A stretch of 43,784 bases of DNA, from positions 1-43,784 of IMG/VR virus record IMGVR_UViG_3300044447_000008; one strand, written 5' to 3'. Source of the DNA: a virus. Positions 1 to 37,518 of this stretch are shown piece after piece (within the stretch, counting starts at the first letter, position 1; each line of letters starts with the position of its first letter). The position numbers were made by a program, and so were the translations under genes. The notes under the pieces were generated by a model. The model saw only the letters and a program-made list of their open reading frames with translations. It ran no database searches and was not told where the DNA came from.

Positions 1-366
1 GCCGTCCACCAATTCGGACATTCCGTGCAACCCCCTCCCCCCCTCACGTTGAGTGACGGTTTTGGGGGTGGAGAGCGTGTGTAGGTAGGCGCGCTCGCAT
101 TCACGTGTGTCTGTGCATCTGTAGTGTGTGGTGCCGTTGTGGTCGAGGGCTATGCGTAGGTCACCTGGTGTGGTCTGTGGGGTGTTGCAGCGTGCGCATG
201 CGGCGGTGCCGACGCCTTGCCATGCGTAGCCGCAGATGCACAGGTGGGGGGCGGTGGGGTGAGGGATGGTGTCGGTGCATTGGTGGCGTGGGTGGGCCAC
301 ACCTGGCGACCAGACGGGGTTGTGCGTGACGCGGTACGCGATGCAGGTAGGGGGTAGCTGCGTCAT
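1..366 (-). CDS. Cys-rich hypothetical protein, open at window edge
   Basis: The ATG at 366 overlaps the stop of the upstream gene as ATGA. The frame then stays open for 122 codons to base 1 with no stop. The protein has two Cys clusters: CxCGY followed by CARC (a probable zinc knuckle near residues 43-60), and a later C-x5-C pair near residues 84-90. This suggests a small zinc-binding phage protein; the function is not recognised. If the window is circular, the frame continues without a stop into the ORF ending at 43179, giving 323 codons in all. A purine-rich site (GGGGGGGAGGGGG, 31-43) precedes an in-frame ATG at 21, so a second protein may begin there. A one-base slip in the G tract would instead end this protein at a nearby TGA. 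Confidence 0.6.
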   Translation of the reverse strand, partial: MTQLPPTCIAYRVTHNPVWSPGVAHPRHQCTDTIPHPTAPHLCICGYAWQGVGTAACARCNTPQTTPGDLRIALDHNGTTHYRCTDTRECERAYLHTLSTPKTVTQREGGRGLHGMSELVDG

Positions 367-617
367 AGCCCTGCCACCTCGGCCACGAGTAGGGCGGCGC
401 GCGCTTGTACCAGCGCAGTCAGGGCGTCCAGCAGGATGTACCTGCCGTTCGTGTCCATCGCTCGCAGTGGGTGGATGTAGGCACCGTCCCGATCGGACTG
501 TTCGACGATCGCGGCGTGTGCTTCGCCGTACGCATCGCTCAGCTGCTGTATCAGTAGGCGCAGCTCGGCGGCGTGTTCAATGCTGTGGGTGGAGGGTACT
601 GGTTCTGTCACGGCCAT
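363..617 (-). CDS. Small alpha-helical hypothetical protein
   Basis: An 84-aa protein from ATG 617, overlapping the HNH gene end (608) and the next start (ATGA at 363-366). It has amphipathic helices (HSIEHAAELRLLIQQLSDAY, then LLDALTALVQARAALLVAEV) and no Cys. It looks like a small helical phage accessory protein; function unknown. The tight overlaps on both sides support it as a translated member of the early operon. Confidence 0.75.
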   Translation of the reverse strand: MAVTEPVPSTHSIEHAAELRLLIQQLSDAYGEAHAAIVEQSDRDGAYIHPLRAMDTNGRYILLDALTALVQARAALLVAEVAGL

Positions 618-916
618 TCCTCGCTCTTCGGGTCTGGTGTGGGTGTGGCCACTGTGGACATATCACGGTTGCCACGGGATGAGTTGCAGCCAAAGTGAGC
701 AGCGCCCCAGTTGGCTACGTCGTCTCGAGCGCCGCCTTTCGATCGTGCGATGAGGTGTTCGACGCTGAACGCTTTCGGGTGGGTGGGCCTGGGCGGGTCC
801 CACAGGAACGGTGTGTGGCACCACATGCACGGCCGTTCTGCCTCTCGGCACCGCGCCATGAACGAGGCCCGGTCCTTGCGGTATTGGCGTTCGTTGTGGC
901 CCACGTTGTTGTTCAT
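608..916 (-). CDS. HNH endonuclease
   Basis: A 102-aa protein. The ATG at 916 overlaps the methyltransferase stop as ATGA, so this start is preferred over longer upstream options. It has the full HNH signature: a CMWC zinc pair (about residues 30-33), a later EH as first metal/catalytic His (VEHLIARSKGG), and a C-terminal N..A.H..CN..RGNRD block carrying the Asn and last His. HNH nucleases of this type cut double-stranded DNA, and in many cos phages assist terminase. On a circular map this gene lies only about 3 kb from terminase, so a packaging role at cos is plausible (inference). A homing role is less likely because no interrupted gene is seen. Confidence 0.9.
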   Translation of the reverse strand: MNNNVGHNERQYRKDRASFMARCREAERPCMWCHTPFLWDPPRPTHPKAFSVEHLIARSKGGARDDVANWGAAHFGCNSSRGNRDMSTVATPTPDPKSEEWP

Positions 917-1623
917 GCGTCGAGCATCATCTGTGACAGGCGCAGGGCGGCTCGCTCGCAGTAGCGCTCCTCGAGCTCCACACCGATGGCGTGGCGGCCG
1001 TCCATGCGTGCGGCGATGAGGGTGGAGCCGCACCCTGCGAATGGGTCGGCGATCGTGCCGGGCGGGCAGCGTTGCACCAGGTCCACCATCACGTCTACGG
1101 GTTTGGCGTGCGGGTGGCCGTAGCGGGCGGCCAGGCCGACGGGGTTGCCGACGGTTCGGGCGCCGCTGCGCAGGACCGACGAGTCACCGTTGATGCCTGC
1201 CGGCCACGGCCCGACCAGATACACGGCCTCGACGTCTCGCCGGTAGCTGGCGTGGGTGCCCTTGGTGCCGGCGTCGGGGGGCTTCTGGTAGATGAGCACT
1301 TGCCTTGTCCCCTGTGGACATGCGACTAGCAGGTCACCGAACACCACAGCTGGCCGGTCGCCCCACAGTGCGAGGGCCCGATCCCGTGCCGCGGTGTCGG
1401 TGTCGCTAGCGATGCCCGCATAGCCGTTGCGGCTGCGTCTCGTCCCGGTGGTGGTGCGCCGCGCTGCGGATGGCCTCGAGGCGCCTTGCCGCCAGCCGCG
1501 CCCGTACGGCGGGTCCATGACCAACACGTCGCAGGACGCCCAGGGCCAGCCGGTCATGGTGAGGGCGTCGGCGTGGTACAGGGTCACGATGCCGTCGGTG
1601 TAGTAGGGCTCCATTGTGGTCAT
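913..1623 (-). CDS. DNA adenine/cytosine-N4 methyltransferase (beta class)
   Basis: A 236-aa SAM-dependent DNA methyltransferase. Catalytic motif IV is DPPY (residues 37-40), and the SAM-binding motif I DPFAGCG lies near the C-terminus (about 193-199). The order IV then I marks the beta class (N6-adenine or N4-cytosine; MT-A70/DNA_methylase N6/N4 family). The ATG at 1623 forms ATGA with the stop of the preceding gene; longer in-frame starts would overlap real genes. No cognate restriction enzyme is adjacent; the HNH gene directly downstream is not a typical partner. Likely an orphan methylase protecting phage DNA from host restriction. Confidence 0.9.
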   Translation of the reverse strand: MTTMEPYYTDGIVTLYHADALTMTGWPWASCDVLVMDPPYGRGWRQGASRPSAARRTTTGTRRSRNGYAGIASDTDTAARDRALALWGDRPAVVFGDLLVACPQGTRQVLIYQKPPDAGTKGTHASYRRDVEAVYLVGPWPAGINGDSSVLRSGARTVGNPVGLAARYGHPHAKPVDVMVDLVQRCPPGTIADPFAGCGSTLIAARMDGRHAIGVELEERYCERAALRLSQMMLDA

Positions 1624-1808
1624 CGGGCGAGCACCTGGCATTTGCAGTCGTCGCCGATACATTTCGGCCCGGCGGGGTGGTCGTCGCGGGCTCGGTAGTG
1701 CGCCCATCCGGGGTGGAGGCATTCGGGGCAGGCCTCGTCGGGAGCGAGTAGGGCTTTGCCGTGTGGGAGGTGGGGTGGTGGCACGGGCGGTGTGCGGCGG
1801 GGGTTCAT
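1620..1808 (-). CDS. Small Cys-rich hypothetical protein
   Basis: 62 aa, ATG 1808, ATGA overlaps on both sides. Cys pairs CPEC (27-30) and CIGDDCKC (50-57) with His residues between suggest a one-zinc knuckle. The N-terminal third is Pro/Arg-rich. It is probably a zinc-binding accessory protein of the early operon. No specific function is recognised. Confidence 0.7.
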   Translation of the reverse strand: MNPRRTPPVPPPHLPHGKALLAPDEACPECLHPGWAHYRARDDHPAGPKCIGDDCKCQVLAR

Positions 1809-2002
1809 CCTTGCCACCTCGGGCCTCGTCCGAGGATGTACGCCTTGACCACGGGGCGGCCCGCCGTTTCGAGCGCCACCACAGGCCATGCCCACGTGTA
1901 CTCGGGAGTGGTGTACCGGCCGTCGACGCACGGAGCTGTGCCGTTGCGCGGTGCGAATCCACGGTTTCCGATCGGGTGACCGCAGCACGGGCACGTGTTC
2001 AT
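1805..2002 (-). CDS. Small Cys-rich hypothetical protein
   Basis: 65 aa from ATG 2002, with a CPCC motif at residues 4-7 (MNTCPCCGHPIGNRG), a half zinc ribbon. The start overlaps the stop of the upstream gene and its own TGA overlaps the next ATG. Function not recognised. It belongs to a run of four short genes with translational coupling. Confidence 0.7.
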   Translation of the reverse strand: MNTCPCCGHPIGNRGFAPRNGTAPCVDGRYTTPEYTWAWPVVALETAGRPVVKAYILGRGPRWQG

Positions 2003-2946: not shown

Positions 2947-3425
2947 GATGCTTCTCCTTTCACATCGGACGGTGCGACGGCTTTGGGGTAGCCGGCAAAG
3001 TCGGGGTTCGGTTGCGCCTCACGGCGGCGGCGTTCGTCGCGCTGCAACTCGCGCCAGTGCTTGTGACCCCAGCGGAGCTTGTCGGGATCGCCCTTGGGCA
3101 GGATGGCGCGTACGGCGTCGCGGACTTCTCGGCTCCGGTCGGTTGTCGTGGCTGGCCGCGCGTCGATGGCCCGCTGTTCGGCCTCCGTGGCTTCACGCAC
3201 GGCCCGGCGCCGCTCCCGGTCGATGTCGGCGGCCAGGTGCCGGACGTCGGACGGCATAATCCACTCTCGACGGTCACGGTAGTGGCGGGTCACCGCGTCC
3301 AACGCGTCGTACACCTCGAGGTCGTGGAGAGCTTCCCACCACGCCTCGACGTCGGTGACGCCCACCGTGCGCCGGTCGAATGCTTGGCATTTGGCGAGGA
3401 CCATCGCGGTTTCTTGGAGGTTCAT
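2943..3425 (-). CDS. Helicase-loader-like replication protein (G39P type)
   Basis: 160 aa, ATG 3425 in ATGA overlap with the replication organiser gene. The N-terminal 70 residues follow the pattern of phage helicase loaders related to SPP1 G39P: a short helix (LQETAMVLAKCQAFD), then DVEAWWEALHDL, then DALDAVTRHYRD and WIMPSDVRHLA. The C-terminal half is highly charged and Arg-rich, as expected for a DNA- or protein-binding tail. Its place directly after a replisome-organiser gene supports a job in loading the host DnaB helicase at the phage origin. The family call is from pattern memory and is moderately certain. Confidence 0.65.
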   Translation of the reverse strand: MNLQETAMVLAKCQAFDRRTVGVTDVEAWWEALHDLEVYDALDAVTRHYRDRREWIMPSDVRHLAADIDRERRRAVREATEAEQRAIDARPATTTDRSREVRDAVRAILPKGDPDKLRWGHKHWRELQRDERRRREAQPNPDFAGYPKAVAPSDVKGEAS

Positions 3426-4339
3426 CCGGCTATCGCCCTTCGCGGTGGTGTCCGGGTTGGGTCTAGGTCTTCGGCGAGTCGTAGCGTCTGGGCGACGGCT
3501 TCGTCTGTTGTGGATGGTCGCGGTCCGGGTGGGCGTCCGTTGCCGCGCCATCGGCTCTCTTCGGCTTTCCTCATCCAGTTGCGCCAGGTGGCGGGCCAGT
3601 CGAGTTTGACGCCCTTGGCGCCTGGTGCTGCCCGGAAGTAGTCCACGAACGCCTCGTGGTCGGTGACTCCGCATCGGGGTGCTTTGGCTCGGGCCCACTC
3701 GCGCATGTCGTCGGTGATGGCGAAGTCGTCGGGTAGTCGCGATCCCTTGGACGGCGAAATTTTCGCCGTGGTGCCTGACGAACGTAGTGAGTCGGTTTGT
3801 GGTTTGTGGTTTGTGGTGTGTGGTGTGAGGTACGCGCCGTTGCTCTGGCCCGTTTTTTGCGATTGCCTATCGGATAGGTCATCGGATGGGGTATCGAATA
3901 GGGTATTAGCCTGCGGTTTTGCGGCTCGCTCCACTCCGGAGGGGGTTGCGTCGAGCCGGGCGAGCTCCACGTCGATCGCGGCCCGTATGAGGGGGCTCTG
4001 CACCTGCGCGATGGCCTCCAGCAGAACCGGGCGCCGCTTGGGATTGCGGTAGCCTTTGTCCCATTTGATGAACGACCTGACCAACAGCTCATCAGTGTCG
4101 GCATCGACGACTAGATATCTCGCATCGACAAGGGCGCCAATGTCTGCCGTGATCGACTCCACGGTGGTGTCGGCGGCGTACCGCGCCCACCGGCTCAGCG
4201 TGACGGCCAGGACGCCGGCCGCGCTGATGTCCTGCTGGCTGAACAGCATCATGTACGTCCGCTGCATCGACCCCGGCAGCGCCCGAAAATCCGGATCCTT
4301 CCAGATGGCGCAGACGATGTTGGAGAAGTTACGTGCCAC
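3422..4339 (-). CDS. Replication initiation / replisome organiser protein
   Basis: 305 aa from GTG 4339, just inside the end of the upstream gene (stop 4329). Longer in-frame starts are rejected because they overlap that gene. The N-terminal 115 residues look like a winged-helix DNA-binding domain of phage replication initiators (RNFSNIVCAIWKDPDFRALP, then SQQDISAAGVLAVTLSRWA and LVVDADTDELLVRSFIKWD). A low-complexity linker (about 150-200) leads to a C-terminal domain with DYFRAAPGAKG and WPATWRNWMRKAEE, the DnaD/replisome-organiser-like end that contacts helicase loader. It should bind the phage origin; candidate DnaA-type boxes lie just upstream (4577-4609). Confidence 0.75.
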   Translation of the reverse strand: MARNFSNIVCAIWKDPDFRALPGSMQRTYMMLFSQQDISAAGVLAVTLSRWARYAADTTVESITADIGALVDARYLVVDADTDELLVRSFIKWDKGYRNPKRRPVLLEAIAQVQSPLIRAAIDVELARLDATPSGVERAAKPQANTLFDTPSDDLSDRQSQKTGQSNGAYLTPHTTNHKPQTDSLRSSGTTAKISPSKGSRLPDDFAITDDMREWARAKAPRCGVTDHEAFVDYFRAAPGAKGVKLDWPATWRNWMRKAEESRWRGNGRPPGPRPSTTDEAVAQTLRLAEDLDPTRTPPRRAIAG

Positions 4340-4655
4340 GTTTTGTCCCCCCGGTTCGTTCGCTTCTACGGGATGACCGAATGAACGACCGGCCGCCTGG
4401 CGCGTTGTAAGTCTGTCCGCATCGCACATTGCGACAGTTGTATTCGTAGTCGTAGCGGCCCGCCTGCACCTCATACGGGTGGAGCGGGACAAGATAGTCA
4501 CCACACATACGGCACGTGCCGACAAAGGACTTCTCGGCGCAGCAACGTAACCAAGCGCCATGGTTGATGGCGCCACCGTCCACAACCCTTTTCCACAGGC
4601 CGTGGATAAGCGCGTCATGCTCGCCGTGGCCATCGGCCAACGCCTCCTGGTCCAT
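4329..4655 (-). CDS. Zinc-ribbon-like hypothetical protein
   Basis: 108 aa from ATG 4655. Cys pairs CRMC (about 48-51) and CRNVRC (about 74-79) are spaced like a zinc ribbon. Helical N-terminus, basic C-terminus (FIRSSRRSERTGG). It precedes and overlaps the replication initiator gene by 11 bases, suggesting a regulatory or accessory role in replication. The coding DNA contains DnaA-box-like sequences. Confidence 0.7.
   Translation of the reverse strand: MDQEALADGHGEHDALIHGLWKRVVDGGAINHGAWLRCCAEKSFVGTCRMCGDYLVPLHPYEVQAGRYDYEYNCRNVRCGQTYNAPGGRSFIRSSRRSERTGGTKRGT
4577..4609. promoter_or_regulatory. Cluster of DnaA-box-like sequences (candidate origin)
   Basis: TTTTCCACA (4589-4597, plus) faces TTATCCACG (4601-4609, minus), with CGTCCACA just before them. 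These match the DnaA box TTATCCACA, or its actinobacterial form TTGTCCACA, at 7-8 of 9 positions. They lie inside the small gene just upstream of the replication initiator, a common site for phage origins. Suggestive only: no AT-rich unwinding element is evident. Confidence 0.35.
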
Positions 4656-4715
4656 CGCCCCTCGTTCTCAAATCGGCCACGGACGGTCCGAACTGGACCG
4701 TCCGTGGTGAACAGC

Positions 4716-5213
4716 TCAGCCGGCCCCCACCGCGGCCACCGCCCGGGCCGTGGCACGGCTGAGGGTCGAGACCGTCAGTGCCCACAAATTGGCGTCGTCC
4801 GTCCCGGCCGGCACCGTCGGAATGGCGCCGTCGACCGCGGATCGCATGAGGTGCCGCATCACCATCCGGGCGTGGTCGTGGTCGTCGACGAGCATCGGTG
4901 CCATGACGGCCACGGTCGCGGCGAGCGCGGCCGGTAGCCGGTGTAGCCGGGCCGTCCGCCATAGCTGCCGGTCGACGCGGCACACGATGACCACCACGTC
5001 GATCGCGGCGAGCTCGTAGCCCACCTGCGGGTCGATGACGGACACGTAGATGGGGCCCTCACCGGCGGCGGCGAGGGGCCCGATCCGGCCCAGGCCGTTG
5101 CTTGGGGACAGTTCCCACTCGTCGATAACGAGGCCGCCGAGGGTGACCCGCTCGAGGGCGGCTGTCCGAGTTGCCATGCCCCACGCGCCGGCGACGACCA
5201 GATCAGGGTTCAC
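4716..5213 (-). CDS. Hypothetical protein
   Basis: 165 aa from GTG 5213, in GTGA overlap with the upstream stop. Hydrophobic beta-alpha pattern (ELAAIDVVVIVCRVDRQLW, then LPAALAATVAVMAPMLVDDH) but no clear membrane segment or known motif. It ends with an Ala-rich helix. No other gene is seen in the 60 bases between its stop and the next gene (4656-4715). Function unknown. Confidence 0.7.
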   Translation of the reverse strand: MNPDLVVAGAWGMATRTAALERVTLGGLVIDEWELSPSNGLGRIGPLAAAGEGPIYVSVIDPQVGYELAAIDVVVIVCRVDRQLWRTARLHRLPAALAATVAVMAPMLVDDHDHARMVMRHLMRSAVDGAIPTVPAGTDDANLWALTVSTLSRATARAVAAVGAG

Positions 5214-6143: not shown

Positions 6144-6166
6144 GCACTCTTTCCTCTCACCCATCG

Positions 6167-6523: not shown

Positions 6524-6764
6524 CGGTGTCTACTCCTTCCAATGTGTTCGGTGGTGCCGGCTGGCGGGCCAGCTCGCACAGTGCCACCTGTAGCAGGACC
6601 TCGACGCCGTCCCTCTTCGACATGCTGATCGCGGAGGCCACTGCGTCGCCGGGGCAGTCGACACCGGTGCAGTGCGCCAGGTGGGCACGGACGAGGCTGA
6701 CGGTTTCGGCCAGGATGGCATGGTTCTGGTCGCGGGCGGCGACTACATGCGCCGGCAGGTTCAC
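6516..6764 (-). CDS. Small helical hypothetical protein
   Basis: 82 aa from GTG 6764 in GTGA overlap with the RuvC-like gene. Alpha-helical (VAARDQNHAILAETVSLVRA, VEVLLQVALCELARQ) with CTGVDC in the middle. Function unknown. A longer ORF from 6878 is rejected because it would overlap the resolvase. Confidence 0.7.
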   Translation of the reverse strand: MNLPAHVVAARDQNHAILAETVSLVRAHLAHCTGVDCPGDAVASAISMSKRDGVEVLLQVALCELARQPAPPNTLEGVDTDG

Positions 6765-7309
6765 GATTCCTCCAATGTGAACGGTGGCCACGGTGGTTTG
6801 ACCACTGCGGCGTGGTGCTTCTTGGGCAAGGCGCACAGCGGCAGCCCGTAGTGGTGCAGCGTGATCGCGACGAGCCATGCGGCGTCGGCTTCGTCGTCGT
6901 TGGCGCAGTGCAGGTGCCTACCGAGGCGGCCCCGTGCTGCGACTTCCATGTCTGCCTTGGACGCCCGCCCGTTGCCGGTCGCGTACACCTTGAGCGTGGA
7001 CGGGTGCACGTCGACCTTGGGCAGGCCGGCGACGTGGATGCCGTGGTTGAGCACGCCGCGCAGCTCGGCCAGGTCCATGGCCGTCTGTACGGCGTCTTCA
7101 CCGGGTGTGATCCGGCCCTCCATCGCGATGAGGGTTCGGCCGGGGGTCGGGTCGCGCATGGTGAGTATCCGCATGATGATGACGTGGTGGCGGTGCTCTG
7201 TCTTGTCGCGTGGACTGGTGGCCACTGTGGATGTGTAGAACCGGCCGTCCCGCCACGTGACCAGGCCCGTGGACGACAGCGACGGGTCGACCCCGATTAC
7301 CGTCGTCAT
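6761..7309 (-). CDS. RuvC-like Holliday junction resolvase
   Basis: 182 aa from ATG 7309 (ATGA overlap). RNase H-fold resolvase with acidic residues in the expected places: Asp8 in VIGVDPSLSSTGLV, Glu64 in IAMEGRIT, and a C-terminal acidic cluster NDDEADAAWLV (138-142). The LAELRGVLNHGI segment and PSTLKVYATGNGRASKADM match the RuvC nucleic-acid-binding region. It should cut branched DNA made during replication and recombination before packaging. Length is close to that of bacterial RuvC. Confidence 0.88.
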   Translation of the reverse strand: MTTVIGVDPSLSSTGLVTWRDGRFYTSTVATSPRDKTEHRHHVIIMRILTMRDPTPGRTLIAMEGRITPGEDAVQTAMDLAELRGVLNHGIHVAGLPKVDVHPSTLKVYATGNGRASKADMEVAARGRLGRHLHCANDDEADAAWLVAITLHHYGLPLCALPKKHHAAVVKPPWPPFTLEES

Positions 7310-7434
7310 GCCTTCACCCGCCAATAGCTCACGGTCGGCCACGGCCACGCATGCACCATCAGGTGCCGGTCGGCCGGCATCCGCAGCTCGACCAACCACC
7401 GGTTCCACCGGTAGAAGTGCGCGTACATCCTCAT
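7306..7434 (-). CDS. 42-aa hypothetical protein
   Basis: ATG 7434, ATGA overlaps at both ends. Trp/Tyr-rich (FYRWNRWLVELRMPAD, HAWPWPTVSYWRV). Too small for a family call, but the double overlap supports translation. The longer ORF in this frame is a shadow of the preceding gene. Confidence 0.6.
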   Translation of the reverse strand: MRMYAHFYRWNRWLVELRMPADRHLMVHAWPWPTVSYWRVKA

Positions 7435-7739
7435 CGCGCACCGGCCTGGATGCGTCGGGCGGTGCCGACGTCGATGAGGCCCAGGTGCGCGAGCGGGAAC
7501 AGTTCCCCGATGGGCCGGTCCTTGCCACCGGCCGCGCGGAATACGTGCACGCACGGCGGGCACAGCGGCTCGCGTATCGCGTCCGCGTCGCCGGGTTTGA
7601 GGGTGGTGCCGTCGGGTCGGATGGGGCACATGGTCGCGGGGTGTACCGAGGTGCTCGGTACGGTTTCGGGGTCGAATCCGAAGGCGTGTCCACATCGGAT
7701 GCATGCGCCGTACGCCTCCATGACCGCCTCGCCCATCAT
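7431..7739 (-). CDS. Zinc-binding hypothetical protein
   Basis: 102 aa from ATG 7739 (ATGATG, ATGA overlap). CIRCGHAFGFDPETVPS near the N-terminus and CPPCV later form a split zinc-binding site with REP before the second pair. Similar small proteins (CxxC, F.F.P..VPS, REP.C..C) are common in Streptomyces and related phages with no assigned role. Confidence 0.75.
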   Translation of the reverse strand: MMGEAVMEAYGACIRCGHAFGFDPETVPSTSVHPATMCPIRPDGTTLKPGDADAIREPLCPPCVHVFRAAGGKDRPIGELFPLAHLGLIDVGTARRIQAGAR

Positions 7740-8945: not shown

Positions 8946-9250
8946 CGCGGGCTGGCCTGATATGCGCGGCCCATCTGGGCGTTGTAGCAGCTGCAGCCGC
9001 ACGGCGGATCCGTATCGAACAGGCCACACCCGGCGTGCTGGCCGTGCTCGCACGTCAGGCAGATCTGGTACCCACCGACCGGCTTGCGCGCCGTGGTGAG
9101 GTGTTTGAACGCGGCGGCCATGTTCGCCCACGGGATCCGGGCCCAGTCGAACGCGGCCAGCAGCACGTCTGCCACCGTCACCCGCTCCAAGCGGCGCACG
9201 TAGCGGGCCTCGCGCCAGCCCATCCGGTGCTGGCCGATGTACGTGGTCAT
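8942..9250 (-). CDS. Cys-rich hypothetical protein
   Basis: 102 aa from ATG 9250. Helical N-terminal half (VTVADVLLAAFDWARIP), then a Cys-rich module in the C-terminal third (CLTCEHGQHAGC and CGCSCY) with enough ligands for two zinc ions. ATGA overlaps link it to the annealing-protein gene. Possibly a nucleic-acid- or protein-binding accessory. Confidence 0.72.
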   Translation of the reverse strand: MTTYIGQHRMGWREARYVRRLERVTVADVLLAAFDWARIPWANMAAAFKHLTTARKPVGGYQICLTCEHGQHAGCGLFDTDPPCGCSCYNAQMGRAYQASPR

Positions 9251-10281
9251 GACGTTTCTCCATTCTGGACCGGGGGCTTGGCCTCGAGCCGGGCGATGAG
9301 CAACCCCGCCTCTGCGGCGGTCAGCTCGTTGCGTGACGTGATCTCACGTTCGATGGTGATGGCGCAGAATGCGAGCGCCGCGTCCTTGTCGTCGTAGCCG
9401 CGGCTCTTGAGGAGCGGGAACAGCTTCCGCTGCTGCGCCAGGGTCATCCGGTCGGGCTCCGGCTCGTCCGGGGGCGCCGGTGCCGGGACCTCATCGGCCG
9501 GGGCGGGTTTCGGCTCTGGCTCGTCCGGACCTACAGGCCGCCGCACGTCCCAGTCCGCCTCGGTGGTGGCCAGACGAGGCTTGGAGGCCGTGCCGAGGAT
9601 CTCGGCCGCGGTGACTCGAGCGCCGACGGCGGCCGTGACCTCGATGGTGTCGGGGACGTCCTCCGTCGTGGGGATGCCCAACAGAATGTGGGCTCCGGTA
9701 CGGTCGCAGGCCCGGCCGGCGGCGCGGGCGTACAGCATGTCCTGCGGGGTTTTGCTGTAGTTTTCGTTCGAGGTCCAGCCGGCCTTCTTGGCTTGCTCCA
9801 TCGTGACGGAGAACTCTTCGATGCGGCCGCCGGTGTTTGGCCGCACCACGCAGATGACTGCCTTTTCGTCGGTGAGTTCCTTGGTCCAAATGTCGTAGCC
9901 GCGGGAGGTGAGGATCGCCACCTTGGCCTTGGCGTACATGCTGGGCCTGTTCGAGATCAGGATGATTTGTTGCAGCGCCGTGAGCGGGTCGAAGCCGAGG
10001 TTCAGTCCCAGCAGTACGGCCGATGTTCCGTTCGCGATCGCGACTTCGCGTGCGTGGAACTTCTCGTCGTCGCTGGCGTTCGGAGCTACGCGCGGCTTGA
10101 AATTGACCGGCACGAACGCGGAGTCGATGAGCGGCGCGACCAGCTTGTGCGCCTGTGATGCGGCGTTTACCCACTCGGCGAGCCGGGCCATGGCGTCGGT
10201 AGTGACCGATCCCATGGCGCCTATGGCGGGCGGCGCCAACCCGTTGGCGTTGTCGTCGACGCGCGCAATGTCGGTGGTCAT
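9247..10281 (-). CDS. Putative single-strand annealing recombinase (RecT-like)
   Basis: 344 aa from ATG 10281, which shares one base with the upstream stop (TGATG). The core (about residues 40-215) has a RecT/SSAP-like pattern: GLNLGFDPLTALQQI, then ISNRPSMYAKAKVAIL, then a beta stretch with FSVTMEQAKKAGW and TPQDMLYARAAGRACDR. A Pro/Glu linker (about 245-285) precedes a small C-terminal helical domain (LAQQRKLFPLLKSRG). It would anneal single strands made by the RecE-like nuclease encoded two genes upstream. Residue identity to RecT is low; the pairing with the nuclease is the main support. Confidence 0.72.
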   Translation of the reverse strand: MTTDIARVDDNANGLAPPAIGAMGSVTTDAMARLAEWVNAASQAHKLVAPLIDSAFVPVNFKPRVAPNASDDEKFHAREVAIANGTSAVLLGLNLGFDPLTALQQIILISNRPSMYAKAKVAILTSRGYDIWTKELTDEKAVICVVRPNTGGRIEEFSVTMEQAKKAGWTSNENYSKTPQDMLYARAAGRACDRTGAHILLGIPTTEDVPDTIEVTAAVGARVTAAEILGTASKPRLATTEADWDVRRPVGPDEPEPKPAPADEVPAPAPPDEPEPDRMTLAQQRKLFPLLKSRGYDDKDAALAFCAITIEREITSRNELTAAEAGLLIARLEAKPPVQNGETS

Positions 10282-10586
10282 CAGAACGGCACCTCTCCCT
10301 GTGGGTACATGATGATGTGGGTGAGCCCGACGAGGCGGGCGATCTCGCATCCGGTGCACTTGCAGCCATTCGGGTGTCCACTGAGGACTTTTACGATGGC
10401 CCTCCGGACCGCCCTGAACTCGCCGCGGTACTCGTCGATCTCCTCCGAGAGTTCGGCTTCGCGGCAGTCGCACGCCAGCTGGTGCTCTTTGCAGGCGGCG
10501 TAGCGGGGGTCCATTGTGTTGCGCGGCGGGTCGTAGTCGATCCGTGTGTCATCGCGGAACAGCACATACCCGCGTTGGCCTCTCAT
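10281..10586 (-). CDS. Hypothetical Cys-rich protein between nuclease and annealing protein
   Basis: 101 aa from ATG 10586, ATGA overlap with the nuclease stop. Contains CKEHQLACDC and CKCTGC, a likely zinc site, around a charged helix (AELSEEIDEYRGEFRAVRRA). Its place between the two recombination genes suggests a partner role, but this is unproven. Confidence 0.7.
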   Translation of the reverse strand: MRGQRGYVLFRDDTRIDYDPPRNTMDPRYAACKEHQLACDCREAELSEEIDEYRGEFRAVRRAIVKVLSGHPNGCKCTGCEIARLVGLTHIIMYPQGEVPF

Positions 10587-11467
10587 CCGGTCACGTCCTC
10601 ATGTTCGTGGAGGTACTCGGCCCAGCGGGGCAGAGCGATCGTTTCGACTTCGGGCGAGTAGGCGGGCCAGACACCGGATGCGGTGCAGTCGCGGTAGACC
10701 TCCAACGCCCGCCGGTTGCGTTCACGCCCGATCCGGATCGCATAGTCGTCGAGGTCGTACACGGCGACGAGAAATGGGGGCGTTTTCTCTTGGACCACGA
10801 ACACAAAGGCGGGTTCGTCGGCCAGGCCCAACGCGGTGACACCGTCGCGGTAGTACTGGTCCTGCTGGTGGTAGCCGTAGGAGGCCACCGACTTCCGCCA
10901 CACCTCCGGCGCGGCCGAGTCCGCCGTCTTGTAGTCGACGATGATTCTGCCCCGCCGCCAGTCGAGCATCGCCCGACGCCACACGCCCGTCGGGTCGTCA
11001 CGCCACACAAGCACCTGCTCGGGCACGCCGCCGGCCGGGTCGAACAGGACGCGGGCCAGGGGGTGGCGGCGTAGCGCCTCAGCCATGGCCATCACCCGCC
11101 CGTAGTCGATCGGTTTGAGCGGCACGCCGCCCGCGGCCCGGACGTCCGCCACTTCGGCCTTGACCTTGTTGGTGCGCCACTCGTCGGCGTCGATCCGGAC
11201 CAGCTCAGGCCCGGCACCTAACACGACCTTGTGCGCCGCATGGCCGAGGTCGAATGCCGCCTTGGGCGCCGCCGGGTGCTCCCGGTCGTACTGGAAGCGG
11301 GCCGGGCACGACGGCGCGAGTAGCTTGCGGGCACCGGATGAGGACAGTGACCCGCCCGCCACCGGGTCGGCGTGGTACACGTCGGCGGGCAGGTCGTACA
11401 CGCCCGGCTCGCTGATCTGCACGGGCACGGGCACGTCGGCGACGTCGGGGAGGGTGGGTGCGGACAT
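10583..11467 (-). CDS. RecE/YqaJ-like PD-(D/E)xK exonuclease
   Basis: 294 aa from ATG 11467. PD-(D/E)xK nuclease with MLDW (Asp169) and VDYK (Asp178, Lys180) forming the catalytic core, and an early motif DLGHAAHK (His76) typical of the RecE/Cas4-like group. The C-terminal QQDQYYRDG matches the QxxxY motif. It should degrade the 5' strand of linear DNA to give 3' overhangs for the annealing protein, completing a RecET/Red-type system. It follows the double winged-helix gene with a 3-base gap. Confidence 0.85.
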   Translation of the reverse strand: MSAPTLPDVADVPVPVQISEPGVYDLPADVYHADPVAGGSLSSSGARKLLAPSCPARFQYDREHPAAPKAAFDLGHAAHKVVLGAGPELVRIDADEWRTNKVKAEVADVRAAGGVPLKPIDYGRVMAMAEALRRHPLARVLFDPAGGVPEQVLVWRDDPTGVWRRAMLDWRRGRIIVDYKTADSAAPEVWRKSVASYGYHQQDQYYRDGVTALGLADEPAFVFVVQEKTPPFLVAVYDLDDYAIRIGRERNRRALEVYRDCTASGVWPAYSPEVETIALPRWAEYLHEHEDVTG

Positions 11468-11470
11468 GGA

Positions 11471-13839: not shown

Positions 13840-13888
13840 CCCCCTGTGTTGGGGGACATGAACATCTTGTTTCGTGCTCGGGATTCGC

Positions 13889-13917
13889 TTGCATGTATGC
13901 ATGCCATCAACTAATAC
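13889..13917 (+). promoter_or_regulatory. Repressor/integrase promoter (plus strand)
   Basis: TTGCAT (-35, 13889-13894) and TAATAC (-10, 13912-13917) with a 17-base spacer. Expected start is about 13924-13925, coinciding with an ATG in the repressor frame at 13925. One operator copy overlaps the -35 and one the start site, mirroring the minus-strand promoter. Confidence 0.7.
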
Positions 13918-13924
13918 TGATGGC

Positions 13925-14437
13925 ATGCGTGCACGTGTGCTGATCACGGGGGCTATGCCAGCCCGCCAACCTCGCCATAGCGTCTCTGGCGTGCCCAAAG
14001 ACCCCGCGACCTTCGGCCGCTACCTCGAACTGCTCATGGCCGAGCACGGATTTCAGACCAAAGCCGAACTCGCCCGCGCCTCAGGCGTCGACGCGACCAC
14101 CATCGGCCGCTGGGTGGCAGGCGAGAAGGAACCCGCCATCGCCGGCCTGCGAGCGATCGCACCCCACCTCGGCGTCCGCCTGGGCGACCTCATGATCAGG
14201 GCCGGGCTGGCGAGCGCGGCGGAGCTGGGGACGGTCGGCGCTCCGCCCGCCCCCCGGGCTCCCCTGCCGCCGGCGGTGCAGCGGGTGATGTCCAGGCTGT
14301 TGAGCCCGCGGTACACGGAGCGGCAGAAATCAGCGCTGCTGGCCGGCATCGACCGGACCACCGACAGCTGGGAGGACGTCGTGAGCGTGCCCAAGGAGCC
14401 TCAGATGCGGCGGAGGCTCCCCGATGCCAAGAGGTAA
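13925..14437 (+). CDS. Phage immunity repressor (HTH_3, no protease domain)
   Basis: 170 aa if started at ATG 13925, which is at the predicted transcription start (leaderless). ATG 13955 behind GGGGG and GTG 13990 are alternatives. The HTH of CI/XRE type covers FGRYLELLMAEHGFQTKAEL, ARASGVDATTIGRWVAGEKE and PAIAGLRAIAPHLGVRLGDL. The C-terminal third is Pro/Arg-rich with a short helix (TERQKSALLAGIDR) and lacks the Ser/Lys autocleavage domain of LexA-like repressors, so induction would not go through RecA-driven cleavage. It overlaps the integrase start by 14 bases, so the two are co-expressed. Confidence 0.8.
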   Translation: MRARVLITGAMPARQPRHSVSGVPKDPATFGRYLELLMAEHGFQTKAELARASGVDATTIGRWVAGEKEPAIAGLRAIAPHLGVRLGDLMIRAGLASAAELGTVGAPPAPRAPLPPAVQRVMSRLLSPRYTERQKSALLAGIDRTTDSWEDVVSVPKEPQMRRRLPDAKR

Positions 14438-16028
14438 GAACGCCCGCCCGGTGACCTACCCGCCCGCGGCCGGCGCCGACAGGCGTTGGCACAGCTTCGT
14501 GCCCATCGGCACCAAGGTCGACGGCAAACTGGACCGTTCCCACCGCACCGGGACGATGTGCAACAAGTGCAAGATCGTGCCCGACAAGGCCTGCGCCTGC
14601 TATCGAAAGGTGGAGGACAAGATCAGGCAGTTGGAGGACGAGCTCGCCAAAGGCGCAGTGGTCAAGAAGCCGACCAACCATGCCACCACGAGCGTCGAGA
14701 AGCTCTCCGCGATGTGGATGAAGGACTGCGAAGTGCGGGGCCTGCGGCACGGCACGCTGACGTCCTACCGGACGGTGACCACGCAGTACATCCACCCGAA
14801 ACGCGAGCCGACCCAACGCCTCGCCGGTGTCGGCGGGCTGCGTGTCCACCAGTTCAACGACGAGAAGCCGATCAAGGCATTCCTGGCCGACGTCAAGAAG
14901 GTCGTCAGCGCCCAGGCCGCCCGCAAGACCCTGCGCGTCCTCCGGGCGATGCTGAGCTACGCCGAGGCAGAGAAGATCGTCAGCCGTAACGCGGCGAAGT
15001 TCGTGGCGATGCCGGCCCTCGACAAGACAGAGGAGATCATCCCGCTGTCGCTGGCCGAGGTCCGCCAGGTCATGCCGGTGATCATGAAGCGGCGCAACTC
15101 GGCCCGGTGGCTGCTGGCCCTGGTGCACGGCCCCCGGCAGGGCGAGTGCCTCGGCCTGGCGTACCACCGCCCCGCCGAACCGCGGATGCCCAGCGACGTC
15201 GACACCGAGGCCGGCACCGTCCGCACCCGGAAGAAGATCGAGCGGCGCAGCTGGCAGCACGGCTGCGAGGATCCGCACGCCTGCGGCGGCGCGCCGCGGC
15301 CGAAGCGACCGCACGGCCACCACAAGCTGAAGCCGTGTCGGCAGCCGTGCAATCGGCACACCCGCGCGTGCCCGCCGCCGTGCGCGAAGGACTGCACCGG
15401 GCATGCGAGCGCCTGCCCGAAAAGGCGGGGCGGCGGACTGGTGGAAGGCGACCCGAAATCCAAGGCGTCCAACCACACGCACGTCTTGGACTCGGCGGTG
15501 CTGCAGGCGTTCATCGACCACGAGGCGCAGCGAGAAGCCGACAAGAAGGCAGCCGGCTCGAAGTGGTCATGGCAGCACGGATGCAAGGCGCCGGCGACCT
15601 GCGCAGACGAGCCCGTGTCCTGCCCGAAGCGGCTCGACAGCGGGTACGTGTTCACCGACGTGTGGGGACGGGCGATCGATCCCAAGCGCGATTGGGACGA
15701 GTGGCAGTCGATCCTGCTCGAGGCTGGCCTGCCGCCGGCGCGGGTCCACGACCTGCGCCACACGGCCGCCACGAACCTCGTCGCGGCCGGCGTCGACAGG
15801 CGCCTGCGCAAGGAACTCATGGGCTGGGCGCAGGACATGCCCGTCTACGAGCACGTAGCGACCGAGATGGCCCGGGACGCGGTGACGAAGCTCGGCGCCT
15901 ACCTGTGGCGGCCGGATCAGGCCGGATCAGATCAGCCCGAACCGGAGCCGACCGGAACGGATTCTGCTACCAATCTGCTACCAGAACCGAAGTCCAACGT
16001 ACTGCCGTTCCGGCGAAAGGCCGTCTGA
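14424..16028 (+). CDS. int: Tyrosine integrase with Cys/His-rich insertion
   Basis: 534 aa, longer than the usual 380-450. Arm-binding N-terminal part with CNKC...CAC (46-59), core-binding helices about 90-195, catalytic domain from about 205. Catalytic residues: Arg238 (HGPRQGECLGL), Lys345 (EGDPKSKASN, beta-hairpin Lys), HDLRH (His442, Arg445), Trp468 where many family members have His (MGWAQDM), and nucleophile Tyr475 (VYEHV). Between the first Arg and the Lys lies a Cys/His-rich block (277-333); a second WQHGC-type block follows at 383-401. The codons near the end (NLLP) contain arm-type DNA repeats. Acts on the attP just downstream. Confidence 0.93.
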   Translation: MPRGKNARPVTYPPAAGADRRWHSFVPIGTKVDGKLDRSHRTGTMCNKCKIVPDKACACYRKVEDKIRQLEDELAKGAVVKKPTNHATTSVEKLSAMWMKDCEVRGLRHGTLTSYRTVTTQYIHPKREPTQRLAGVGGLRVHQFNDEKPIKAFLADVKKVVSAQAARKTLRVLRAMLSYAEAEKIVSRNAAKFVAMPALDKTEEIIPLSLAEVRQVMPVIMKRRNSARWLLALVHGPRQGECLGLAYHRPAEPRMPSDVDTEAGTVRTRKKIERRSWQHGCEDPHACGGAPRPKRPHGHHKLKPCRQPCNRHTRACPPPCAKDCTGHASACPKRRGGGLVEGDPKSKASNHTHVLDSAVLQAFIDHEAQREADKKAAGSKWSWQHGCKAPATCADEPVSCPKRLDSGYVFTDVWGRAIDPKRDWDEWQSILLEAGLPPARVHDLRHTAATNLVAAGVDRRLRKELMGWAQDMPVYEHVATEMARDAVTKLGAYLWRPDQAGSDQPEPEPTGTDSATNLLPEPKSNVLPFRRKAV

Positions 16029-16040: not shown

Positions 16041-16095
16041 TGGTGGGGCGGGCGGGACTCGAACCCGCGACCGAGGGATTATGAGTCCCATGCTC
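16041..16095 (-). other. attP: attP core: 3' part of a tRNA-Met/Ile(CAT) gene
   Basis: On the minus strand this reads as a tRNA from the end of the D arm through an anticodon loop CTCATAA (anticodon CAT), variable loop and T arm (GCGGG-TTCGAGT-CCCGC) to CCA at 16041-16043. The 5' acceptor and D stems are absent, so it is not a working tRNA. A phage that carries the 3' part of a tRNA gene regenerates the host tRNA on integration. The position, 13 bases after int, marks it as the crossover region. Confidence 0.85.
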
Positions 16096-16103
16096 ATCAG
16101 ATT

Positions 16104-16179: not shown

Positions 16180-16214
16180 GATCCGATCCGTTTTGCTACC
16201 ACGCTGCTACCAAT

Positions 16215-17328: not shown

Positions 17329-17351
17329 GACGTCGTGCCTGGTCCGGTCGG

Positions 17352-20582: not shown

Positions 20583-20863
20583 CGGTGCTCCGATCCGGCG
20601 CCGCTCCTGCTGGCGCCGCTCCTGCTGGCGGCCTTCAAGTCTTCCAGCAGTCGGGTGTTCAGCTCGCCCTGCTTGAGTAGCTTGTCGAACTGCTCATCCC
20701 GCTTGGCCAGCGTGGCCTTGTAGTAGGTGATCTGGTCGTCTCGGTCCTTCAAACGCTCTCTGTGCATCCACCACGGCACTAGCCGGCCGAGGAACACGAG
20801 CATGAAGAACACGCTCACCAGTCCCCACGGCCCGTAGACGCCCAGGGGGATGCCGTCGATCAC
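20579..20863 (-). CDS. Membrane-anchored coiled-coil protein
   Basis: 94 aa from GTG 20863 (GTGA overlap with the endolysin). One N-terminal membrane helix (WGLVSVFFMLVFLGRLVPWW), then a long charged helix (HRERLKDRDDQITYYKATLA, KRDEQFDKLLKQGELNTRLL). It has the architecture of a small i-spanin or an anchored regulator, though the host envelope has no outer membrane of the E. coli kind. The C-terminus has a repeated ASRSGA. Confidence 0.7.
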   Translation of the reverse strand: MIDGIPLGVYGPWGLVSVFFMLVFLGRLVPWWMHRERLKDRDDQITYYKATLAKRDEQFDKLLKQGELNTRLLEDLKAASRSGASRSGAGSEHR

Positions 20864-21888
20864 GGCGTAGCGTCAGGCGCCAGGCCGCCGGCGAACGCAT
20901 CGCGCACAGCCGCCTCCACATCCTCGCGGGTCATCGCGTCGGCCGGCAGACGCGACACGATCGCGTCCACAATGGCCGGGACGATGGCCGGGACGGTGGC
21001 CGTCACGCCGGCGGCTGCGGCCTGCTTGATGGCCTCCAATTCGGCCGGGTCGATGTCCACCTTGGCCGCGATCGCCTTAACCGCCGTGGTGATAGCGGCC
21101 AGCTGATCGCGCATCAGCTGCAATCGGTAGTGAACGGACTGCTTTTCGCCGCCGTCAAGCAGCGTGTACGCAACATCGGTGCTGGTCGTATCGTCCCAGG
21201 CCATACCATCATCTCCTTTTGGTGTCGTCCCAGCGGGACGGGTGAGCGCAAGCAGCTGCTCGCGCGAGAGTCGGCTGACGTTGAGGTCCACCTTGTTCCC
21301 GAGGCCACCCGCATCGCCCCGCGAAGTGAACTGCAGGATCGTGGCCTCAGGCCACCCGCCATATACGGGCACCCACCACGAGGCCGGGATTCGCCCGGCG
21401 ACCGCGGCCGGGTCGTCCGGCACAGTGTCCGCGTCTGCGGTCAGGTAGTGGCTGTGCCACAGGTACGGGGTCAGGTCAGCACCGCGGAACCCGCCCGTAC
21501 GCGGCCACCACCACCCACCCGAGTAGATCAGGAACGGGTGACCACCGGTCAATCTTTGCCACTCGCTGGCCCAGGCGCGCATCTGTGGCCCGTAGCCGTC
21601 ATCCTCGCAGTCGAGCTGGATGAGCATGCCGGCCGGGCCACCTGCGGCCACCACGTGGCGGTGAAACCATCGCGCCTGCGCCGCGCCGTCGGCCGCGGTG
21701 AGCCAGTGGTACGCACCTGGTATCAGGCCGGCGGCGCGGGCGGCGCGGATCCAGTCGTCACCCAGGTCCCGCACGTAGCCGGTGCCCTGCGTCAGCTTGA
21801 TTGCAGCGAACGAGTAGCCCTGCGAACGCAGCAGCGGAAAAGACAAACCCGCCTGGTATCCATCGTGGACATCAACGCCGTACAGCAT
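20860..21888 (-). CDS. Endolysin, GH25 muramidase
   Basis: 342 aa from ATG 21888 behind GGAGG. GH25 lysozyme domain in residues 1-205: YGVDVHDGYQ with the first Asp, AAIKLTQGTGY, and LIQLDCEDDGYG with the catalytic Asp/Glu pair, then IYSGGWWW and ATILQFTSRG at the end of the fold. The tail is helical and Ala-rich (ITTAVKAIAAKVDID; TVPAIVPAIVDAIVSRL), without a known cell-wall-binding module. No signal peptide, so it needs the holin. It cleaves the MurNAc-GlcNAc bond of peptidoglycan. Confidence 0.92.
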   Translation of the reverse strand: MLYGVDVHDGYQAGLSFPLLRSQGYSFAAIKLTQGTGYVRDLGDDWIRAARAAGLIPGAYHWLTAADGAAQARWFHRHVVAAGGPAGMLIQLDCEDDGYGPQMRAWASEWQRLTGGHPFLIYSGGWWWPRTGGFRGADLTPYLWHSHYLTADADTVPDDPAAVAGRIPASWWVPVYGGWPEATILQFTSRGDAGGLGNKVDLNVSRLSREQLLALTRPAGTTPKGDDGMAWDDTTSTDVAYTLLDGGEKQSVHYRLQLMRDQLAAITTAVKAIAAKVDIDPAELEAIKQAAAAGVTATVPAIVPAIVDAIVSRLPADAMTREDVEAAVRDAFAGGLAPDATP

Positions 21889-27393: not shown

Positions 27394-29682
27394 CTACCGT
27401 GCCCTTCCGAGCTGCCGTGCGAACCCCATCGAACCGTTGATTTCGGCACCCACACCCGGCGCGATGCGTTCCACCGCGCCGATCAGCTTCTCAAGCAGCT
27501 CCGCGATACGGCCGACGCCAGACGATCCACTACCGCCCGCGAAACCACCGGCCGCGGGCAAGTCGCCGGCGGCGTCCTGACGGATGAGCCCGAACCCGAA
27601 CCGGCGGGCAACATCCGCGAGGATGGCCGTGGACCGTGTGCGCTTCGTTGTCGCGAGGGGGATGTACGCCTCCCCGCCGGTCTCGTCCTCACCCCACACA
27701 CGCCACGTGCCGGCCTTGACCACCTGGGCCACGTGCTGCTCAATCCCGCCGCCGGCAAAGGATCGGGCGACGCCACCGTTAGCGAAGGACCGGAGCACGC
27801 CGCCGTCGGCCATGCCACGCTCCACCCGGTCGAGCTGTTTGAGCATGTTGGATAGCTGGTTGGACCCCGACACGCTCACAACGACATTGCTTTTAACATC
27901 CTCAGGGATGCGGAACAACGCATCGGCGAGCTTGATGATTTCATCCTTGTTCTTGCCCGTCGCCGACGTGTTTTTGATCGCCTCGTCTTTGAACTTCGCC
28001 AACAGCGTTGCCGCCTCGGCCGCCGAGTGACCATTCTCCTGATACTTCAAAGCAGCGTCGACGGACTTCTGTGCGCTGCGTTCCAATTCGACCCGGTTCT
28101 CAGACGACGCCAACGACATGCCGTCAATCGACTTGCCGCCCTCTTCGAACGTGTCCTTCAGCCGGTCGATGGCCTGCCGCGCCTCCAACACGGCCTCATC
28201 CGCGGTCAGCATCTTGCCGTTCAACTCGTCCCAAACGTCCATTAGGGACTTGCCCTTTTCGGCCGCGTCCTGCGATGCGTCACCGAGCTTGCCCGTCGCC
28301 CGCTCGGCCTCCGCCATAGCGTTGGCATACTTCGGCATCAGCTTTTCAGCCTCGTCCGCCGTCAGCTTGCCCGCCTGCATAAGCCGGAAGAACGCCGCCC
28401 GCGCGGCCTCCAAGTTGCCGTTGCGTACCAGGTCGGCAAGCTGGTTATCCACGCCCTGGATGCGTTCCTGCGCATCGCCAAAACTCCGCCCCGGCAATGC
28501 GTCGTTCAATTGGCGCAGCCCCGGAATGGCACCCTCTATGGCACGGGCTATCCCGTTGACACCGTCCCCGGCAAGGGCCGCGTCGTCTCTAAACCCTGCG
28601 AGGTCCTTGCCGAACAGTCGGGCCAGCTCGCCCGAAATTTCGTTCTCCTTGCCCAGGTGTTGGATCGAGTCGGCGAGGCCCTCAATGTCCGTGGCGTGGC
28701 CCGCAAACGAGTCAATGGCCTGCGCAGCGATGACCATGCCGGTGATCGCCAACCCGGCCCGGGTCGCGCGCTTGGTGGTGCCGTCGAGGCCGACACCCAG
28801 CACACCCTGTACCGCCGCCCATGCCTTGGTGACACCTATCACCGTGCCGATGACGAGGGCCATGGACGCGATCGAACCGACGAGCGGCACCAGCCATGCC
28901 TGATTTTTGATTCCAAATTGGAGGATGTCGTTCAGCATCGGCATGAGCTTCGCGCCGACCATTTCCTGAAAGTTTCCCCATGCCACCCGTGCCTTGTCCG
29001 CAGGGCTAGCGGCGGCTTCAGCGGCGCCGCCGAACTGCGTGGTCAGCTCGCCGAGGATGACCTTCTGAGCGCCCATGACGTCGCCGGTCTCCACCATGGT
29101 TTTGATGGATTCCTTCTGCTGATCGGTGAGCTGAATACCCGCCTTCTTGAGCGCGGTGAGCCCACCGATCGGATCATTCAAAGCCTTACCCACCAACAGG
29201 GTTGCGGCCTGCAAGTCGGTACCCAACGCGGCCGACAGGTTCAGGGCCGCCTCAGTCCCTTGGTTGAAAATGTCATTGCCCTTGCCCGCCTCGTTGCGGA
29301 CCTTCGTGAACGTGAGCAACACGTTCTCAGAACTCTGGATTACCTCATCGTCCACACCGGACAGATTGGAGAGGTCCCCGGCGAGGTCGCTAATCTGGCT
29401 CCCCGTGATTTTTGCCTGGTTGCCGGTCGACTTCAACGCCGCCTCAGTCAGGCGGGTAACCTTCGCCGCTTCCTGCGCCTCGGCGAATGCGCCCTTGAAA
29501 AAGTCGACCACGACGGTCGCAGCGATACCGAGACCGATGCCCGTCATGAGCCCTTCGCCGAACTTCTTGCCCACCTGTTTCCCGACGGGCCCGACACCCA
29601 TCTCTGCCTTGGCTTTCAGCTCTCGCGGAAAGCCATCCATGTCCGGCCTGATTCGCACAAAGGCGTCGGCGAGAGTGCCCAC
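27394..29682 (-). CDS. Tape measure protein
   Basis: 762 aa from GTG 29682. Largest tail-region helical protein: N-terminal basic/amphipathic region (VRIRPDMDGFPRELKAKAEM), the TMP core (AAATVVVD-type helices; TRLTEAALKSTGNQAKITGS, SENVLLTFTKVRNEAGKG), a hydrophobic middle (LVPLVGSIASMALVIGTVIG) and a Gly-rich basic C-terminus with VWGEDETGGEAYIPLA. The length suggests a tail of about 110 nm by the usual 0.15 nm per residue rule (inference). Confidence 0.93.
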   Translation of the reverse strand: MGTLADAFVRIRPDMDGFPRELKAKAEMGVGPVGKQVGKKFGEGLMTGIGLGIAATVVVDFFKGAFAEAQEAAKVTRLTEAALKSTGNQAKITGSQISDLAGDLSNLSGVDDEVIQSSENVLLTFTKVRNEAGKGNDIFNQGTEAALNLSAALGTDLQAATLLVGKALNDPIGGLTALKKAGIQLTDQQKESIKTMVETGDVMGAQKVILGELTTQFGGAAEAAASPADKARVAWGNFQEMVGAKLMPMLNDILQFGIKNQAWLVPLVGSIASMALVIGTVIGVTKAWAAVQGVLGVGLDGTTKRATRAGLAITGMVIAAQAIDSFAGHATDIEGLADSIQHLGKENEISGELARLFGKDLAGFRDDAALAGDGVNGIARAIEGAIPGLRQLNDALPGRSFGDAQERIQGVDNQLADLVRNGNLEAARAAFFRLMQAGKLTADEAEKLMPKYANAMAEAERATGKLGDASQDAAEKGKSLMDVWDELNGKMLTADEAVLEARQAIDRLKDTFEEGGKSIDGMSLASSENRVELERSAQKSVDAALKYQENGHSAAEAATLLAKFKDEAIKNTSATGKNKDEIIKLADALFRIPEDVKSNVVVSVSGSNQLSNMLKQLDRVERGMADGGVLRSFANGGVARSFAGGGIEQHVAQVVKAGTWRVWGEDETGGEAYIPLATTKRTRSTAILADVARRFGFGLIRQDAAGDLPAAGGFAGGSGSSGVGRIAELLEKLIGAVERIAPGVGAEINGSMGFARQLGRAR

Positions 29683-32127: not shown

Positions 32128-32988
32128 TCATCCCAGCCTCGGGGCACGTTTGACCCCGAGTAGTTCCCGGACCCTGTTGGGCACGGCGTACCCGACAGCC
32201 ACCATGGACTCCGCGACCTCTTTCGCGCGGGTCTGCCCGGACGCGAGCTGGCTCGCCCGCCACACGTGCGCTATCAGTTCCCGCGCGGCCAGGCGCACAT
32301 TCTCCTGTGGCACCACGCTGCCGATCCGGTACGTCACCTTGATGTTCCGTGACCCGGCCGGGAACGGATAGTCGTAGCCGTTGTTGCGGCGCAGGATGCG
32401 CCGCGCGGGCACGTCCAAAAGGTAGTTGCCGTCGCCGGTGCCGATGCTCGAGTCCGGCTCGAGGGTGAGCACACGCTGATCACCGGGCGCCCACTGCTCC
32501 CGCAGCTCGAGCACCGCGATGACCGGGCCTTTGTTGAGGTGGATAGCCGTGCAGCCACCGTCGTGATACTCGACGATTGTCCGCGGTACGACGGCCACAC
32601 CTAGCCTGAACTCAATGACGAATTGCGCGGCGTCGATGAAATCCCGGATGTCCTCATCGTCGGTGGTGACGGCGAGGTCCTTGTTCAGGTGCCGCTTCGC
32701 CTCCACGAGAGACACGATCCGCGGCCCGGGCGTCCGGACGAAAAACTGTCCCGTGTAGACACCGACCACGGTGCCGCTCGCCGTGTACCGCCACAGCCAC
32801 GGCCCAGGCGTATCAACCACCACATCGGCGTAGTACTGCCCGATACCCGCGTTCACAACCGCAGGTGCAGGAAACACCGTGTCATCGGGCCTGGTCACCG
32901 TGCTAGCCATCGTCGCGGCCGCGAGCTGCCCCGCGTTGTCCCTCACCGTGACCGGTAGCCGCACCATCTGACCCACGTCATACGCCAT
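32128..32988 (-). CDS. Head-tail connector (gp6-like) with extra N-terminal domain
   Basis: 286 aa from ATG 32988. The C-terminal two-thirds is a gp6/DNA-packaging adaptor pattern (SLVEAKRHLNKDLAVTTDDE, DEDIRDFIDAAQFVIEFRLG, YPFPAGSRNIKVTYRIGSVV, RLAARELIAHVWRASQLASG). The N-terminal about 90 residues form an added beta-sandwich (PVTVRDNAGQLAAATMASTV; YYADVVVDTPGPWLWRYTAS). It sits on the portal. Its ATG shares a base with the stop of the next gene upstream (32988). Confidence 0.8.
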   Translation of the reverse strand: MAYDVGQMVRLPVTVRDNAGQLAAATMASTVTRPDDTVFPAPAVVNAGIGQYYADVVVDTPGPWLWRYTASGTVVGVYTGQFFVRTPGPRIVSLVEAKRHLNKDLAVTTDDEDIRDFIDAAQFVIEFRLGVAVVPRTIVEYHDGGCTAIHLNKGPVIAVLELREQWAPGDQRVLTLEPDSSIGTGDGNYLLDVPARRILRRNNGYDYPFPAGSRNIKVTYRIGSVVPQENVRLAARELIAHVWRASQLASGQTRAKEVAESMVAVGYAVPNRVRELLGVKRAPRLG

Positions 32989-37505: not shown

Positions 37506-37518
37506 GGGTAAGCTCCCT

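Follow-up and report, generated by a model that had tools for sequence, protein, structure and literature searches.

IMG/VR virus record IMGVR_UViG_3300044447_000008 (67% GC) is probably the complete linear genome of a cos-ended temperate siphophage, minus the overhang only. The record was analysed over its whole length of 43,784 nt and is referred to here as the window. Its ends look like natural sticky ends that are fixed in position, not like the product of a random cut through a circle. Its host is probably to be sought among soil bacteria, in Micromonospora and its kin. The main gene modules of a tailed phage are recognised (Table 1). The first-pass annotation had proposed a complete, circularly permuted genome of a free phage form, largely because open reading frames run in phase across the joined ends. 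Completeness and the free form are supported; an attP core lies inside the window, the main modules are recognised, and the halves of a cos-like site stand at the ends. Circular permutation is not: the cos-like site at which the ends fall is fixed, and the join lacks about 10 nt. Completeness is better evidenced by the cos halves at both ends than by the in-frame join, and the record is therefore read as a complete linear genome, not a permuted one.

We consider it very likely that the record comes from a temperate tailed phage with cohesive (cos) ends and covers its linear genome essentially in full. According to this model, the terminase would cut concatemers at a single cos site that lies between the HNH gene and the gene for the terminase large subunit (TerL), probably with the assistance of the phage HNH nuclease. 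The contig would span from cut end to cut end, with only a single-stranded overhang of about 10 nt absent. Once injected, the DNA would circularise by annealing and ligation of its ends, and the circle could integrate via attP into a tRNA-Met(CAT) gene of a Micromonosporaceae host.

Evidence for a fixed site at the right end came from comparison with the contig ends of related phages. Read towards the terminase, the window begins with 9 nt followed by TTCTCTCTCC. TTCTCTC occurs once in the window on both strands (87,568 nt), at the 10th base from the right end, and simulated 20-mers of equal composition contained the motif once in 200,000. The motif was originally spotted on the contig ends of relatives. 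Loci of relatives were taken from TerL alignments (the best 80 of at least 564). In 59 of these best 80 loci a contig end lies upstream of TerL, within 750 nt of it in 31 of the 59; among the downstream contig ends of the same loci, 3 of 46 are that close. Six upstream ends visibly open with a few bases and then TTCTCTCYCC. TTCTCTCYC lies within 20 nt of 7 of the 59 upstream ends, in five cases after 8–10 nt, compared with none of the 46 downstream ends and none of 44 ends of 22 other records used as controls. Across 966 kb of TerL loci, TTCTCTC[CT]C was matched 16 times, with 15 matches in TerL orientation. Six records have TerL near an end: one has the strict motif after 8 nt (G013), two have a shorter form (G019 and G004), and three are without it (G027, G014 and G008). 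These comparisons suggest that the window ends at a fixed site common to its relatives.

The left end carries a run of G in the same orientation as the motif, 30 nt from the end. This run had been interpreted as a ribosome site, but relatives and Rhodococcus phage Madraxi have a matching G-run, which precedes their intact cos motifs by about 48 nt. The G-run ends 46–53 nt ahead of the motif in 5/8 contiguous relatives (L202, L207, L229, L239 and L258); the three without that spacing are L223, where the G-run is at 27 nt, and L249 and L269, which have none. With the ends joined, the G-run is separated from the motif by 48 nt in Madraxi, 39 nt in the window and 35 nt in G013, and the joined window is about 10 nt short relative to intact sites. 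Twenty intact sites with TerL downstream are C-rich at positions −19 to −10 (C in 18/20 at −13 and in 16/20 at −17). This C-rich block, absent from the window join, is presumed to be the sticky overhang, and the join is estimated to lack about 10 nt (7–14). One related contig (L224) starts exactly after the C-rich block, and another that is 86% identical (L327) contains it. Neither a direct nor an inverted terminal repeat of at least 8 nt was found in the window, and the assembly itself therefore gives no sign of circular closure. Excerpts from PMC5000459 indicate that an absence of terminal repeats is expected for cos phages, with which the window agrees, and that 3′ overhangs are conventionally placed at the record end.

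Table 1. Features of the window, from the left end to the right end.
Feature	Position	Strand	Remarks
Other putative cos flank	1..30	-	30 nt between G-run and physical end; includes ATG (21-19)
Left-end ORF	1..366	-	Open to end; Cys-rich, zinc-ribbon-like by eye; coding signal weak; no relatives found
G-run GGGGGGGAGGGGG, putative cos element	31..43	-	No other tract of the window has at least 12 G in 13
HNH endonuclease	608..1033	-	Last recognisable early gene before cos; 0.6 kb from end
DNA methyltransferase	913..1962	-	
Replication initiation protein	3422..4756	-	
RuvC-like Holliday junction resolvase	6761..7693	-	
RecT-like annealing protein	9247..10473	-	
Exonuclease VIII (RecE-like)	10583..11467	-	
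Candidate repressor (Cro/C1-type HTH)	13874..14437	+	
Integrase (phrog_1)	14424..16028	+	
attP core, 49 nt	16041..16089	-	Identical to 3′ part of Micromonosporaceae tRNA-Met(CAT); 12 nt after integrase stop
Endolysin (glycosyl hydrolase family 25)	20860..21888	-	
Tape measure protein	27394..29682	-	
Head-tail adaptor	32128..32988	-	
Major head protein	36225..37784	-	5′ part of ORF overlaps protease gene
Head maturation protease	37519..38322	-	
Portal protein	38322..39752	-	
Terminase large subunit, TerL (phrog_9)	40063..41541	-	E 2.5e-55
Right-end ORF	43179..43784	-	5′ end open; likelier start GTG 43754 or later; no relatives found
Conserved cos-side motif core TTCTCTCTC, of TTCTCTCYC(C)	43767..43775	-	9 nt inside right end, pointing to TerL
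End segment GCCGATCTC, 9 nt, before motif	43776..43784	-	8-10 nt in related cos-ended contigs

The observation behind the first-pass proposal of closure is correct: the minus-strand frames open at base 1 and base 43784 share one phase, and no stop codon separates them. The purine-rich stretch (43-31, minus strand) and the ATG at 21-19 are also present, but the open frame does not start there; it is already open from ATG 366, which has a 4-nt overlap with the stop of the gene at 363-617. The joined ORF encodes 323 aa, and the 208-aa protein that had been predicted is its in-frame tail. The 208-aa protein is probably not a gene, and the reading across the join is probably accidental. When this genome was excised at random (left cut at 0–12 kb, right cut at 24–43.8 kb), 1614/3000 trials produced an ORF that spans the join on the minus strand with 50 aa or more on both sides, and in 851 of these 3000 trials a spanning ORF totalled 300 aa or more; in a second set of 3000 excisions, at least 100 aa on each side were obtained in 722. 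Likewise, 28 related IMG/VR records were joined end to end, and two with end repeats of at least 20 nt were set aside. Among the 26 repeat-free records, 15 have a spanning ORF on either strand, of at least 300 aa in 9. Because spanning ORFs are so frequent in random cuts and in related records, the in-frame join, at the 67% GC of the window, is no more than chance would give; it is real but weak evidence for closure, close to uninformative.

No homologue of either half-ORF was confirmed in viral_contigs, and a search with the 323-aa joined product among phages returned one match at E 0.9, which was disregarded. The junction itself (15+15 nt, with up to 30 nt between) had no match when viral_contigs was scanned. 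A change in the sign of GC skew between the ends was considered as a sign of non-contiguity and dropped, since 50-nt windows place the change near position 50, inside the left end.

The late genes (terminase to endolysin, including those for tail proteins) and the early genes (RecE-like exonuclease to HNH) are on the minus strand, with the integrase and candidate repressor genes on the plus strand between them. As originally claimed, early and late genes follow one circular order across the join. The HNH gene, said to lie about 3 kb before the terminase, ends 2850 nt before TerL across the join. Cos-type phages with an HK97-like terminase and HNH have a large terminase of the phrog_9 family and an HNH gene near the packaging site, ahead of the terminase genes; the window shows both features. 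The primary paper on HNH proteins in packaging is reportedly that of Kala et al. 2014. Excerpts from PMC9611059 and PMC5304195 describe HNH proteins as participating in packaging beside the terminase. Gene order was also compared in loci related through the methyltransferase (the best 80 of 138). TerL is present in 14 of these best 80, and in 12 of the 14 the methyltransferase gene lies 0.4–8.7 kb upstream on the same strand; the spacing across the window join, 3155 nt, is inside this range. One contig (L017) holds the methyltransferase, HNH and TerL genes in that order. The order differs in L014 and L016; at 334-2359 of L014, the methyltransferase match (1239-1904) separates two pieces of a TerL match (334-1215 and 2081-2359), which looks like an insertion into the terminase gene. 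A near-identity search with positions 1-12000 gave no match among phages, and a TerL search of genome_contigs gave none that was confirmed.

The ORFs upstream of TerL gave no family match to a small terminase. One small gene there (42853-43182, minus strand) resembles phrog_24916 as well as genes in the right arm of 13 Mycobacterium phage records; its search in viral_contigs confirmed no relative. Between cos and TerL, a diverged repeat (D4, 74%; 42097-42130 and 42504-42537) is common to two small neighbouring genes, which suggests a local duplication. The 11-mer CTGACCTGCGG, at 43711-43721 on the plus strand, is often continued by AAACG or TTTT. It has 42 copies in phage loci, compared with about 4.6 expected by composition, although some loci overlap and the copies are not all independent; some copies are near genome ends (Madraxi, Fishburne, G008) and others are inside TerL.

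Additional evidence for a free temperate phage came from the attachment site. One attP core is present inside the window, as the first-pass annotation stated, and it corresponds to the last 49 nt of tRNA-Met(CAT). Exact matches were found in 54 stretches of genome_contigs. Their titles include Micromonospora and further genera that we take to be Micromonosporaceae. ARAGORN called a tRNA in all five of the five loci tried, and several host loci hold integrase relatives (9 matches). A prophage junction (attL or attR) was rejected, as the integrase gene flanks the core; the core is read as attP because identity with the tRNA stops at the CCA end or at most 2 nt from there and the 5′ half of the tRNA is absent. 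The integrase and a core identical to part of a host tRNA fit a temperate phage that integrates in a tRNA gene. Inverted repeats of the GATCCGGTCCGATCC type (16096-16189; arms of 29–30 nt, 87–90%) directly adjoin the core and are possibly integrase arm sites. Between attP and the endolysin gene are two GntR-family regulators (16867-17544, minus strand, and 18202-18972, plus strand), one with a UTRA domain.

Other explanations of the ends were weighed against these data. It is very unlikely, and the least probable of the readings considered, that the genome is circularly permuted (headful, pac) and was cut arbitrarily, with ends abutting exactly inside one gene. In-phase, stop-free end frames, a gene order that closes into a single circle, and the best score for frame 0 among the three minus frames in nearly all windows up to both ends favour such a genome. 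However, spanning ORFs arise frequently by chance, the ends coincide with the cos signatures of relatives, and they share no k-mer overlap, which, as an excerpt of PMC8116208 states, assemblers usually leave on circular templates. A cos-ended genome with an overhang of 9 or 12 nt, in which one gene truly crosses cos after circularisation, is unlikely. In its favour, the spacing permits an overhang of 7–14 nt, the frames are in phase and ATG 21 has a G-rich stretch upstream. Against it, a role in cos already accounts for the G-run, ATG 21 sits in frame inside an upstream ORF, and no homologue was found of either half or of the join.

We also regard it as quite unlikely that the window is an incomplete fragment whose ends are assembly breaks with a stretch of some length missing between them. 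The methyltransferase-to-TerL spacing fits that of the 12 contiguous loci with the same order, and two chance breaks on both halves of a cos signature would be very unlikely. Points consistent with a fragment are the absence of a terminal repeat, the frequency with which related contigs end near TerL, the unrecognised small terminase, and a left end near a G-run that could hinder assembly. Some observations count against the preferred reading, that of a linear genome with cos ends. The strict motif is absent from 52/59 TerL-side ends of relatives, three of the eight contiguous relatives have no G-run at the expected spacing, a small terminase is not recognised, and the left ORF reaches the end without a stop, which is odd next to an intergenic cos. 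The distance from cos to TerL is 2.2 kb in the window versus 178–858 nt in 20 other loci, although larger distances are found in relatives too (about 1.9 kb in L249 and about 2.5 kb in L269).

Those 20 loci came from a scan of viral_contigs for a G-run with the motif, which found at least 120 stretches, 80 of which were examined. TerL of this family is present in 21 of the 80, downstream on the same strand at 178–858 nt in 20 and upstream in one; none of the 21 has it on the opposite strand. Because the other 59 of the 80 are without such a TerL (although 29 have room of 3 kb or more), G-run and motif alone are not specific, or are common to other terminases. We tentatively suggest that the composite of a G-run, a spacer of about 30 nt, a C-rich block of some 10 nt presumed to be the overhang, 9 nt and TTCTCTCYCC may be a conserved, possibly undescribed packaging site, shared by a wide range of phages that have this terminase and include many of Actinobacteria. 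A title-level literature search found no paper title describing such a motif, which does not establish its absence from print. The phage is of an ordinary kind; its cos signature may prove useful. Phage records from metagenomes are usually taken for fragments when they have no end repeats; with both cos halves at its ends, such a record can be whole and its true ends placed. If the composite signature holds, sequence alone could be enough to re-score, as complete genomes, many metagenome records that are classed as linear fragments, and recognised cos ends also warn against gene calls across an artificial join.

The closest relative found, IMG/VR contig L003 (IMGVR_UViG_3300011442_000098), has TerL 77%, portal 79% and head protein 79% identical to those of the window, but it is a 6.2-kb fragment that starts inside TerL, short of cos. 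Among the nearest isolate TerLs is that of Madraxi (PP978820), 36% identical to the window TerL. The Madraxi record carries TTTCCCTCTC after the first 11 nt and has GGGGGGTGGGGG 37 nt before an end that finishes TGACCCCGCC, in a C-rich block. Madraxi differs in its size of 64 kb, in the gene order around the terminase, and in that the terminal C-rich block is kept in the record. The circular order of the window is found in linear form in Rhodococcus phage Sleepyhead (NC_048782), whose ends fall after the last HNH gene and before the terminase genes, and the two share the order structural genes, lysis, integrase, repressor, exonuclease, RecT, RuvC and HNH; Sleepyhead has no TTCTCTC motif at its record start. 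HNH last and terminase genes first is an arrangement seen in seven isolates that have this terminase family: Sleepyhead, Adora, Pipsqueaks, Mbo4, PinkFriday, PHL037M02 and Fishburne. TerL of Sleepyhead and the other six cos phages is at most 32% identical to that of the window, and it lies about 0.7 kb or less from the left end, versus 2.2 kb in the window. In one of them, Mbo4, a 14-nt 3′ overhang is annotated at the HNH/terminase end.
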